Of a stretch of DNA of 64,000 nucleotides, positions 4,994 through 46,117 are shown in pieces. A model generated the notes under the pieces. That model did not search any database and had not been told where the DNA came from. It saw only the letters and a program-made list of their open reading frames with translations. Numbering within the stretch: the stretch's first letter is position 1; each line of letters starts with the position of its first letter. The stretch is taken from contig CP066225.1 in NCBI GenBank assembly GCA_016350165.1, forward strand, positions 5,146,001 through 5,210,000, read 5' to 3'. The position numbers were made by a program, and so were the translations under genes. The DNA comes from Planctomycetota bacterium. Its GTDB lineage: Bacteria > Planctomycetota > Phycisphaerae > Phycisphaerales > Phycisphaeraceae.

Positions 4994-5305
4994 TTATTGG
5001 CTAGAGTGTGATCGTTTTTCTTCAGCATATTTCTTTTGATAAAACTCGTCGTAACTCATTGGCTGACTTTGAGCTTGCTGCTGCTCTTCATTGGTGTCAG
5101 TAACGTTGTACTTTGACTGGAAGTCTGGACTGGCATTGTGTTCTGGCTGCTGCTCGCGTAGGTAGTCTTGGTATTCCCTTTGAACACGCTGCTCAAACAT
5201 AGCGTTTGATTGATTGGATGCGTAAGGTTTTGGTTTTGGAGCGGGCTCAGCGGCACAAGCTACGAATAAAAGTGGTAGTGAACATATGAATAGTAATTTT
5301 CGCAT
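4994..5305 (-). CDS. Small lipoprotein, paralogue of the next gene
   Basis: This 103-residue protein has a Lys/Arg start, a hydrophobic run and the lipobox LFVAC (Cys17), so it should be lipidated after cleavage by signal peptidase II. The mature part is polar, rich in Gln, Glu and Tyr, with no recognised domain. It resembles its upstream neighbour at two places: FEQRVQREY (neighbour FNQQVQQEY) and a C-terminal SYDEFYQKKY (neighbour SYEDYYKQQY). The AGGATC stretch about eight bases before the ATG supports the start. Function unknown. The two genes look like a tandem duplication that has diverged. Confidence 0.75.
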   Translation of the reverse strand: MRKLLFICSLPLLFVACAAEPAPKPKPYASNQSNAMFEQRVQREYQDYLREQQPEHNASPDFQSKYNVTDTNEEQQQAQSQPMSYDEFYQKKYAEEKRSHSSQ

Positions 5306-5537
5306 GAATATAGATCCTGTAAAAAGGGTTTATGGATCATAGTCATACAAAAATCAATACGCGGTTAAGAATTATCCCTGCGAGATGTAGGTTACGATTT
5401 GTAACGAATCGATGCACCTAACGGATCACACTAAATGTTATCACAGAATCTTTTGCGGCTGAAATGACTGATAATAATGAGAGAATTTATCGGAAGCACA
5501 GGCTAGTAAGGGATTGAATTGTATTATGGGCTGAGCG

Positions 5538-22068: not shown

Positions 22069-23298
22069 TTATTTACCCATGTCAGGCTTAGCCGCATCCT
22101 TAATCTTCTTGATCGCCTTCAAACGCTTCAGCTCATCCGCCAACTCCTTGTTCTGCTGGAACAATTCATAGACATTATTTTCAAGCTGATCACGCAGCGT
22201 TTCAACTGCACCATGTGCCTCAGTCCGTTTGCCTTCAAGTTCACCAACCAAACGGTTCGCAACTTCTCGTTCAACCAAACCTTCACGACGCAGCAAATCA
22301 ATTCGATCAATCAACTGATCTTCTAGCAATTCTGCCTTGCCATCTAGCATCTGCGAATTCTTATCAATCAACTTCTCATTCGAATTGATCACTGATTGAT
22401 AATCCTGAATCCGAGCAACCAAACTACGCATCTCTGCATCATCTTTGACCACGGGCGTTTTTACCGTAACTTCCACAGGCTTTTCACTCACAGCCGCCGC
22501 CGCAACTCCAGTTCCTGTAGCAGTCTTATCAATCCCCTGCATCAACACCTGCTGTCGTATACTTTTCCCTTTATTTCGTGTACATCTCGATTTATTACGC
22601 GTACATTTACGCCGCTCAGCCCGTTTCTCACGAAACGCTTGTTTACGCGCTTTATGATGTTTCTTCCATGCATCACGTTTTGCATGCATCTCAGTTTTCT
22701 TCTTCGCACAATGCTTCTTCCATGCCTTACGTTTATTTTCAACCCACTTTTTCCACTGATCATCACGTTTCCCATGACGATGCCAGTACTTCTTCCCATG
22801 TTTGTCATAATGAGCATGGAACCGTGGCTTGTGATGCCCACGATGGTGATGATGCATCTTTTCTTTACGGTGATGTTCTCTCACCCAACCACGCTTCTTC
22901 TGCCCATGGTGCATCGCACGTTTTTTATGCTTATCTCCAATCCAGAATTTCACATGACCATGCTCGCCAAGCTGTAACTCACCCCATCCCTTAATCTCTT
23001 TCTCTTTAAGCTGCAGCTTGATCTTGTTCCCATCAATATTCACATCACCAAGCACCCAGCCTTTACCATCACTCTTCACAGTAATCTTCAAAGGTCCCCC
23101 ACTACGACCTTCAAGATCACCTTCCCATTGCCACCCCATATGACCATCATGGTGCTTCTTCACAGCTTTATGATGTTGGCCACGCTTTTTCTTCTCACAT
23201 TTTTTATCGCATCCCCACGCCGTGCCGCTCAACCCTGCGCACACGAACAGCGCCAAAACCACAACACTAATCACACGCGTTCTCATTTGCATACCCAT
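22069..23298 (-). CDS. Exported His/Lys-rich protein with C-terminal coiled coil, unknown function
   Basis: I do not recognise a family. A signal peptide is clear (VISVVVLALFVCAGLSGTAWG), followed by the mature part. Residues about 30-130 have a beta-like segment (GPLKITVKSDGKGWVLGDVNIDG) flanked by His and Lys. Residues about 130-240 are extremely rich in His, Lys, Arg and Trp (MHHHHRGHH, KKHHKARK, WHRHGKRD, four Cys in CTRNKSRCTRNK and neighbours). Residues about 285-405 form a likely coiled coil of normal charged composition (LLEDQLIDRIDLLRREG). Start is uncertain among GTG 23310 and ATG 23298, 23292 or 23286. The middle could bind metals, polyanions or nucleic acid; that is speculation. 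Confidence 0.75.
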   Translation of the reverse strand: MGMQMRTRVISVVVLALFVCAGLSGTAWGCDKKCEKKKRGQHHKAVKKHHDGHMGWQWEGDLEGRSGGPLKITVKSDGKGWVLGDVNIDGNKIKLQLKEKEIKGWGELQLGEHGHVKFWIGDKHKKRAMHHGQKKRGWVREHHRKEKMHHHHRGHHKPRFHAHYDKHGKKYWHRHGKRDDQWKKWVENKRKAWKKHCAKKKTEMHAKRDAWKKHHKARKQAFREKRAERRKCTRNKSRCTRNKGKSIRQQVLMQGIDKTATGTGVAAAAVSEKPVEVTVKTPVVKDDAEMRSLVARIQDYQSVINSNEKLIDKNSQMLDGKAELLEDQLIDRIDLLRREGLVEREVANRLVGELEGKRTEAHGAVETLRDQLENNVYELFQQNKELADELKRLKAIKKIKDAAKPDMGK

Positions 23299-23618
23299 TA
23301 CCCGGACCACCCCGAAACTTCAGACCCCATTACGAATCAGGCCCAACCGCACAACAACCCATCGCACTCTCGTACGATCAGTTCAAACACCACACCATAC
23401 CTGCCACTTGTTACTTTCTTCCCAGCACATCTTCCATCTCTACCATCCATCCACACTCTTCCTCGACAACACCTCAAAATTTCATGAATATCATTCACAC
23501 CTTTCCAGTTACCGCCCCTTCTTACGACCGATACTCCCTAACCCCCATCTTTGATCGCACTTTTCACCTTCCGTATAATGCAACCCAGAAGCATCGCTTC
23601 CAAACAATCTACCCACTA

Positions 23619-23744
23619 GGCGATGGAGTTCGCCTTCAACCGCCATCCCCCCCGCTTGGTTAGGATTCTCCAACCGGAATCCAACTAACTCCCGAATGCA
23701 AGTTATCTAATTCCGGGGCCGGGGGCGGGCTGATGACTCCTACT
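23619..23744 (+). promoter_or_regulatory. Fluoride riboswitch (crcB motif)
   Basis: The highly conserved 5' block GGCGATGGAGTTCGCC (23619-23634) and 3' block GCTGATGACTCCTAC (23729-23743) match the fluoride-responsive crcB RNA, including AACCGCC after P1 and the ATGACTCC that makes the pseudoknot with GGAGT. Between them is a long variable arm (about 23641-23725) with an internal hairpin GGATTC...GAATCC and a GC-rich closing helix (CCCCCCG with CGGGGGC-like strands). It lies 56 bases upstream of a CLC-F type fluoride exporter, as expected for fluoride-induced expression. Confidence 0.93.
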
Positions 23745-23799
23745 TAACCACGCGATACCTGTGCGCAACCACCACAGCTTCGCCAGTATGGAGTCACTC

Positions 23800-25176
23800 A
23801 TGCCGCAATCATTATTCAAACATCACATCGCCCTCACCCGCTACATTATCAAATGGATCGCCCTCGTCCTCCCGCTAGGCCTCATCATCGGCTCAGCGAA
23901 CGCTTTCTTCATCACCGCCCTCTCACGCGCCACCGAAACACGCTTCCAACACCCATACCTACTCTTCCTTCTCCCATTCGCAGGCGTTTTCATCGCCGCC
24001 CTCTACAAATACCTCGGCAAACCTTCCGACAAACAACACACAGAAGCCGGCAACAATCTCATCATGGACGAAATCCACAAGCCCGGCGGCGGCGTCCCCG
24101 CTCGCATGGCCCCTCTCGTCCTCTTCACAACCGTCATCACCCACCTCTTCGGAGGTTCCGCAGGTCGCGAAGGCACAGCCGTCCAAATGGGTGGCTCCAT
24201 CGCCGCTGCAACTCACTCACTCCTTCCCAACTTCATTCGCAAACATCTCACCCCCGACGATCTTCGCACACTCCTCATCGTCGGCGTCGCCGCAGGCTTC
24301 GGCGGCGTCTTCGGCGTCCCCTTCGCTGGAGCCATCTTCGCCATCGAAGTCCTCGCCATAGGCCGACTCTCATACGAATCATTCTTCCCAGCCCTACTCG
24401 CATCCATCGCCTCCGACTGGACCGTCCGCGCATGGGGCGTTCATCACACCGACTACCTTGCCGTCACCTCATTCACCCAAACCCTTTCTCACGAAGTCGC
24501 CGTCACCGATTGGCTCTTCCTTCTCAAAGTCCTCATCGCCGCCGCGTGTTTCGGCCTCGCCGCCATGACCTTCGCCAAACTCACTCACACCCTCGCAGCA
24601 CTCTTCAAGAAATTCATCAAACCAACCCTACTCCGACCAGTCATCGGTGCCGCCATCATCATCGCACTCACCTACCTTCTCGGCACACGCGACTATCTCG
24701 GCCTCGGCACACAAACCGCTACAGGTGAAGGTGTTTCCATCCTCAATGCCTTCTCATCCGAATCCGCAACCACACCCTTCAGTTGGTGGTGGAAACTTCT
24801 CTTCACAGCCATCACCCTCTCCTCAGGCTTCAAAGGCGGTGAAGTCACACCACTCTTCTTCATCGGTGCATGTCTAGGCAACACACTCGCCTGGCTCCTC
24901 GGCGCACCCATCGAAGTCTTCGCAACCCTCGGCCTCATCGGCGTCTTCGCAGGTGCAACCAACACACCCATCGCTTGCACCATCATGGGCATCGAACTCT
25001 TTGGCTCACATTACTTACCACCCCTCGCACTCACCACCATCACCGCCTACCTCTTCTCAGGCCACGCATCCATCTACTCCGCTCAACGTCTCCACACCCC
25101 AAAACCAATCGCAACAAAAACTCCAATCCCCACCAACACACCCCTACGCGAACTCCAATCCACAAGCAAAGACTAA
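23800..25176 (+). CDS. CLC-F type fluoride/proton antiporter
   Basis: CLC-F proteins export fluoride in exchange for protons. Start ATG 23800 has GGAG six bases upstream (458 residues); GTG 23761 is less likely because it would sit close to the riboswitch. About ten to twelve membrane helices are predicted by eye. The selectivity segments match the fluoride branch: GREGTAVQMGGS (about 124-135, with Met in the VQMG position), GVFGVPFAGAIFAIEVL (about 171-187), and GFKGGEVTPLFFIGA (about 345-359). Codons end overwhelmingly in C. A fluoride riboswitch directly upstream independently supports the function. Some chloride-type CLCs share the fold, but context and motifs favour fluoride. Confidence 0.93.
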   Translation: MPQSLFKHHIALTRYIIKWIALVLPLGLIIGSANAFFITALSRATETRFQHPYLLFLLPFAGVFIAALYKYLGKPSDKQHTEAGNNLIMDEIHKPGGGVPARMAPLVLFTTVITHLFGGSAGREGTAVQMGGSIAAATHSLLPNFIRKHLTPDDLRTLLIVGVAAGFGGVFGVPFAGAIFAIEVLAIGRLSYESFFPALLASIASDWTVRAWGVHHTDYLAVTSFTQTLSHEVAVTDWLFLLKVLIAAACFGLAAMTFAKLTHTLAALFKKFIKPTLLRPVIGAAIIIALTYLLGTRDYLGLGTQTATGEGVSILNAFSSESATTPFSWWWKLLFTAITLSSGFKGGEVTPLFFIGACLGNTLAWLLGAPIEVFATLGLIGVFAGATNTPIACTIMGIELFGSHYLPPLALTTITAYLFSGHASIYSAQRLHTPKPIATKTPIPTNTPLRELQSTSKD

Positions 25177-46043: not shown

Positions 46044-46117
46044 GCTCCCGTAGCTCAATTGGATAGAGCGCGGCTTTCCTAAAGCTGAGGTTAGAGGTTC
46101 GATCCCTCTCGGGAGCA
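46044..46117 (+). tRNA. tRNA-Arg (anticodon CCT)
   Basis: The full cloverleaf is visible: acceptor GCTCCCG/CGGGAGC, D arm TAGCTCAATTGGATAGAGC, anticodon stem CGGCT/AGCTG with loop TTCCTAA (anticodon CCT, reads AGG), T arm AGAGG-TTCGATC-CCTCT, discriminator A. CCA is not encoded. It sits alone between the esterase and the hydrolase genes. Confidence 0.95.

Follow-up and report, generated by a model that had tools for sequence, protein, structure and literature searches.

A probable translational fluoride riboswitch with an outsized P3 arm upstream of a CLC-F exporter gene in a planctomycete

A fluoride riboswitch aptamer of the RF01734 (crcB motif) class precedes a gene for a CLC-F type fluoride/proton antiporter in the genome of a Planctomycetota bacterium (assembly GCA_016350165.1, contig CP066225.1). 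We analysed the 64,000-nucleotide stretch that contains both (positions 5,146,001 to 5,210,000 of the forward strand, hereafter the window; all coordinates refer to it). The element, one of whose side arms greatly exceeds the usual length, is a new example of an already known kind of riboswitch, and folding models make it quite probable that it controls translation of the exporter as an ON switch. Without fluoride, UGAUGACUCCUACU (23731-23744) would pair with AGUAUGGAGUCACUCA (23785-23800), and this OFF helix would bury the Shine-Dalgarno GGAG together with the first base of the AUG, so that little exporter would be made. Binding of fluoride and Mg2+ during transcription would instead hold GACUCC in a pseudoknot with GGAGUU (23625-23630), and the Shine-Dalgarno region, made about 50 bases later, would stay free for translation. 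This direction of regulation is proposed by analogy with the riboswitch class and its literature.

When the window was compared with 4227 Rfam families using cmscan, RF01734 matched with 48.4 bits (gathering score 34) over model positions 1-64 of 64, with the P1 stem and the P3 base pairs formed and no pairs flagged as broken. The initial annotation had named the element from the two conserved blocks of the crcB motif and had proposed a search with the crcB model; the blocks are both present and the model gave a significant, full-length match. The 5' block GGCGATGGAGTTCGCC (23619-23634) is followed by TTC and AACCGCC up to 23644, and the 3' block CTGATGACTCC occupies 23730-23740. The pseudoknot strands, GGAGUU in the P1 loop and GACUCC in the 3' block, make six of six standard pairs, one of them G-U. 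A second member of the genus (genome G243, locus L035; hereafter the congener) carries an aptamer that likewise spans 140 bases; it scores 45.1 bits with one P3 pair flagged as broken, and also forms six of six pseudoknot pairs. We conclude that the element is a real fluoride riboswitch aptamer of the RF01734 class, which on this sequence evidence would be expected to bind fluoride. A degenerate or non-functional remnant is highly improbable: nothing specific speaks for it, although decay might be read into the long insert, and the aptamer here has no broken pair, that of the congener only the one in P3, both pseudoknots are complete, and the downstream open reading frame (23761-25176) is intact.

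The protein encoded by this frame, which opens at GTG 23761, matches PF00654 with 235 bits. Its best relative of solved structure in a phmmer search is the CLC-F protein 6d0j (190.6 bits over residues 22-431), and the strong solved relatives were limited to three CLC-F fluoride/proton antiporter entries, the next being chloride channel protein 1 with 25.6 bits. Three NCBIfam models of chloride CLC proteins matched below their cut-offs (105 of 482, 53.4 of 350 and 29.8 of 425 bits). The motifs GNN, GREG and GGEVTP, which we take to be CLC-F signatures, are present in the proteins of both species; 6d0j shares GREG and GGEVTP with the protein here and has GMN where it has GNN in the phmmer alignment. 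As judged from sequence, the gene product is thus a CLC-type F-/H+ antiporter that resembles CLC-F more than it does the chloride CLCs, in agreement with the earlier assignment of the gene. The congener protein is identical at 363 of 454 positions. Translation likely starts at ATG 23800, 59 bases downstream of the 3' block, because GGAG lies six bases upstream and ATGCCGCAAT is common to the congener; this assignment is by conservation. By inspection, neither GTG 23761 nor ATG 23788 is preceded by a comparable Shine-Dalgarno site.

The unconstrained minimum free energy (MFE) fold of 23610-23820 contains the OFF helix (-70.3 kcal/mol, z -3.50, 1 of 200 shuffles as good), in which 23731-23744 forms 3+7+4 pairs with 23785-23800 and covers GGAG and the A of the AUG. 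The pseudoknot and the OFF helix are mutually exclusive, because the anti-Shine-Dalgarno strand includes the 3' strand of the pseudoknot. The congener MFE fold contains an OFF helix as well (-64.1 kcal/mol, z -3.32, 0 of 200 shuffles as good), with 14 pairs (6+8 flanking a U-U mismatch) that lie over the Shine-Dalgarno site and not over the AUG. The helix letters are altered on both strands, the congener having CCUGUUUA/UGAAUAGG where the sequence here has CCUACU/AGUAUGG. The duplex formed by the anti-Shine-Dalgarno strand with the downstream 100 bases has a z-score of -6.4 here and -4.9 in the congener, and in neither case did any of 200 shuffles reach as low an energy. When the aptamer state was imposed, the unpaired probabilities of the four GGAG bases rose from 0.00 each to 0.09, 0.28, 0.84 and 0.81, in a folding model that includes neither pseudoknot nor fluoride energy. 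The element had earlier been described as a fluoride-induced unit. The riboswitch class and the CLC-F gene named in that description are supported; the route by which the aptamer would control the gene was left out of it, and here the sequence points to sequestration of the Shine-Dalgarno region by the pseudoknot strand.

We extended the pairing analysis to aptamers from the same taxonomic class. An RF01734 search of its genomes listed 106 matches, from which 92 were used (30 loci, 60 stretches, L035 and L083) and 14, mostly the weakest, were dropped; addition of the locus described here (L031) and of three overlapping CLC-F loci (L038, L039, L041) gave 96 loci. Removal of 24 without the motif by regular expression, two with too short a downstream sequence (L067, L068), five with a poor pseudoknot and a gap above 110 (L073, L217, L221, L234, L252) and four duplicates (L216, L225, L230, L248) left 61 aptamers. 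Across these, the 3' pseudoknot strand paired with its own downstream sequence at a mean of -17.4 kcal/mol, compared with -14.8 kcal/mol with that of other loci, and none of 2000 permutations was as low; the test ignores kinship, and near-identical relatives were kept. For 28 of the 61, at most 10 of 200 shuffles paired as well downstream. By inspection, the partners of the pseudoknot strand are Shine-Dalgarno sites in L048, L053 and L255 and lie before T runs in L047, L050 and L060.

Partners of the latter kind bear on the alternative that the riboswitch acts on transcription, through intrinsic or Rho-dependent termination, and not on the ribosome-binding site; in L047, L050, L060 and L069 the pseudoknot strand pairs just upstream of a T run. 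Between 23300 and 25400, a simple terminator scan detected nothing terminator-like on the + strand, so that an intrinsic terminator was rejected as the platform. In addition, the anti-Shine-Dalgarno helix is not followed by a T run and, in both species, lies over the Shine-Dalgarno region. We therefore regard transcriptional control as unlikely here, although Rho action may follow once translation is blocked.

Several observations weigh against translational control by this pairing. Imposing the aptamer state opens GGAG only in part, as it does the Shine-Dalgarno bases of the congener, and the AUG then falls within a small local hairpin, where it is less accessible than when the RNA folds freely. 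The unpaired probabilities of the AUG bases are 0.06/0.05/0.04 with the aptamer imposed against 0.03/1.00/0.49 in the free fold, and 0.44/0.21/0.07 against 0.52/0.92/0.65 in the congener. By nearest-neighbour energies, the OFF state in each of the two species is about 7 kcal/mol more favourable than the aptamer scaffold and pseudoknot duplex taken together; the switch must therefore be kinetic, by co-transcriptional capture, or gain much energy from tertiary contacts and ligand. The pairing is also not unique, since the downstream stretches of 4 of 60 other loci pair at least as well with the strand here, and those of 5 of 60 with the congener strand. Among the three other CLC-F riboswitches, the partner overlaps the Shine-Dalgarno site in L038 and L041, where it does not convincingly outdo shuffled sequence (55 and 12 of 200 shuffles as good), and the best partner in L039 is not the Shine-Dalgarno site (178 of 200 shuffles as good). 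Finally, the start codon that the OFF helix would overlap is itself a likely one, placed by sequence conservation.

The second distinctive property of the element is its arm. In total, 98 bases separate GATGGNGTTC from CTGAT, and the apical insert in P3 comprises 83 bases where the RF01734 model has 7, so that the earlier estimate of about 95 bases was fair. The gap between the blocks is 19-46 bases in 58 of the 61 aptamers, 83 in L083, where the Rfam alignment places part of the extra sequence between P1 and P3, and 98 both here and in the congener; this distribution leans to short arms, since the RF01734 search under-detects long ones. Exact-pattern surveys, which are independent of the covariance model, were made as well. 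A long pattern matched in 11 of 298 genomes of the taxonomic class (reversed control, 2 matches), of which by inspection three are real, with a P1 stem and AACCG (G243, G233 and the source genome G000), and eight chance-like. A compact pattern matched at 35 places in 31 of the 298 genomes (control, 5 matches), with 30 places judged real and five chance (G019, G267, G276, G096, G074). A one-block pattern with one mismatch was too loose (268 of 298 genomes matched). The arm is thus far beyond the usual range in the taxonomic class, which supports the earlier description of it as unusually long.

The fold of the arm was less distinctive than its length. Folded alone, the arm (23638-23735) has a z-score of -1.35, with 18 of 200 shuffles as good, and that of the congener -0.92, with 38 of 200. 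A helix of a C-run and a G-run at the arm base is kept in both species, whereas the inner hairpins differ and the internal hairpin described earlier is not kept in the congener. The earlier GC-rich helix and internal hairpin are thus not supported as a distinctive fold of the arm. Ungapped comparison of the tip with the congener gave 25 of 65 identical positions (38%), where shuffles gave a mean of 16.6 (standard deviation 3.4; 60 of 5000 as high), below the 125 of 235 (53%) identical at fourfold-degenerate sites of the gene. On the fold z-scores and a tip without sequence conservation, we rejected the view that the arm forms a structured module. We also rejected a mobile or repeated element, as the stretch 23645-23729 has a single match in the genome, namely itself.

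We suggest that in the long P3 arm a variable helix has been extended and that the extension is passive: the arm base is paired in both predicted states, while the sequence of the tip drifts. The arm might alternatively be a functional module that serves as an additional sensor, as a site where a protein or RNA binds, or as a timing spacer leaving fluoride more time to bind until the pseudoknot strand appears. Both genus members found have the arm, at an identical length of 98 bases, although the tip is so divergent and the leaders differ by indels: downstream of the arm a 10-base and a 1-base indel separate the two despite the equal gap, and the congener leader is 9 bases longer. The equal length with drifting sequence is seen in two sequences only and may be chance. 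Given further that neither arm folds clearly better than its shuffles, that the inner hairpins differ and that tip identity falls below fourfold-site identity, a functional module appears unlikely. Selection on the length and not the sequence of the 98-base arm, by which a transcription-time delay would tune the capture of fluoride ahead of synthesis of the pseudoknot strand, is a speculation that we consider improbable.

To place the element in a wider context, we considered its occurrence among genomes. The genome-wide RF01734 search of the 298 genomes gave matches in 79, above the cut-off in 72. It gave no match in the source genome, though cmscan of the window finds the aptamer, and it placed the congener at a shorter, poorer site (34.3 bits); both failures are presumably due to the long arm, and long-armed members are probably under-counted by fast first-look searches. 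Homologues of CLC-F at E <= 1e-30 occur in 13 of the 298 genomes, and an Rfam fluoride riboswitch lies at 5 of these 13 loci (L031, L035, L038, L039, L041). Within the family, a homologue at E <= 1e-60 is found in 7 of 51 genomes, with a riboswitch at two of the seven, both of this genus, and no gathering-level riboswitch at L036, L037, L266, L267 and L268.

A scan of genome contigs beyond the taxonomic class returned at least 118 stretches, and among those listed a regular expression found a paired P1 and the 3' block in 11. By inspection, these comprise five single long aptamers (L106, L114, L123, L124, L148), two tandem compact pairs (L120, L183) and four chance-like cases (L092, L094, L156, L198); Rfam confirmed L106, L114, L120, L123 and L148, while L124 and L183 are known by inspection. 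L148 (Hydrogenibacillus, 50.5 bits) and L123 (Acidobacteria, 43.0 bits) have apical P3 inserts of 73 and 63 positions where the model has 4 and 5, respectively, with arm sequences that look unrelated to the one here. In L148, the pseudoknot strand is followed by its partner and a short T run. L106 has extra sequence at both places, apically in P3 and between P1 and P3, and in L114 and L124 it lies mainly between P1 and P3, where L083 also carries an additional stretch. Long arms occur in several phyla, yet look uncommon. The tandem aptamers, L120 at 5217-5363 (Acidobacteria) and L183 near 3369 on the reverse strand (Anaerolineae), lie about 70-85 bases apart and are possibly cooperative switches.

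Translational fluoride riboswitches are already known, and the element here adds a member. In the portions of the literature available to us, the crcB motif is reported with predicted terminators, which overlap the motif in many cases (PMC2864571), a docked pseudoknot is described for the Bacillus cereus riboswitch (PMC8752731), a translational fluoride riboswitch has been used in archaeal hyperthermophiles (PMC11077080), and 1901 fluoride riboswitch sequences have been characterised, those of Pseudomonas syringae and Burkholderia pseudomallei as translational controls (PMC13273304). As far as the accessible text of that study goes, the latter two resemble the element here in having a fluoride aptamer, control placed at translation and no terminator seen; the P3 arm here is much longer than the RF01734 consensus, and the likeness leaves exact platform pairing aside. 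The accessible parts of PMC9495176, PMC8814607 and PMC5756330 make no mention of the pairing described here. Queries of the open-licence literature that combined the fluoride riboswitch with planctomycetes, or with CLC proteins and the Shine-Dalgarno sequence, found no description of this element, and the available part of PMC9331176 holds no relevant case. The present analysis contributes a well-supported fluoride riboswitch, probably a translational one, whose P3 arm is outsized, and shows that long-armed members can escape fast searches. The shared-strand pairing across relatives in the taxonomic class further suggests a simple, testable predictor of translational fluoride riboswitches.

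Table 1. Features of the riboswitch and exporter locus, in window coordinates
Feature	Positions	Strand	Basis
Candidate sigma-70 promoter TTGATC-17-TATAAT	23551-23579	+	10/12 consensus positions; weak alone
Fluoride riboswitch aptamer RF01734, full length	23610-23749	+	cmscan 48.4 bits, E 2.5e-10
P1 hairpin GGCG/CGCC, loop ATGGAGTT	23619-23634	+	Rfam alignment
Pseudoknot 5' strand GGAGUU	23625-23630	+	6/6 pairs with 23735-23740
P3 arm: GCC/GGC pairs at the base, followed by a C-run/G-run helix and about 65 bases of weakly structured tip (23654-23718)	23642-23730	+	
3' conserved block CUGAUGACUCC, including pseudoknot 3' strand GACUCC (23735-23740)	23730-23740	+	Rfam alignment
Predicted anti-Shine-Dalgarno strand UGAUGACUCCUACU, overlapping pseudoknot strand	23731-23744	+	MFE fold; duplex -16.3 kcal/mol, 0/200 shuffles as low
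AGUAUGGAGUCACUCA: Shine-Dalgarno GGAG (23790-23793) and first start-codon base; predicted OFF-state partner of 23731-23744	23785-23800	+	
CLC-F type fluoride/proton antiporter, 458 amino acids (alternative in-frame starts GTG 23761, ATG 23788)	23800-25176	+	PF00654; 6d0j relative; start conserved in congener

Upstream of the aptamer, the candidate promoter is weak by itself, as shuffled sequence yields a mean of 1.0 promoter-like site as good; by inspection, the congener has TTGATC and TATAAT with an 18-base spacer in the corresponding place. The only other gathering-level Rfam match in the window is a tRNA at 46044-46117. Elsewhere in the source genome, a CrcB/Fluc family gene (79.1 bits) lies at G000:C1:332501-332869, with no gathering-level riboswitch in the stretch examined (L270). 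A second CLC-like protein is encoded at G000:C1:1092249-1093628 (L032, L033; stretches 24% and 38% identical), again with no gathering-level riboswitch in the stretches examined. Divergent from the riboswitch, a His/Lys-rich frame of 413 amino acids with a GTG start and an HH-rich first half occupies 22069-23310 on the - strand of the window; it has no Pfam match and might encode a metal-binding protein.
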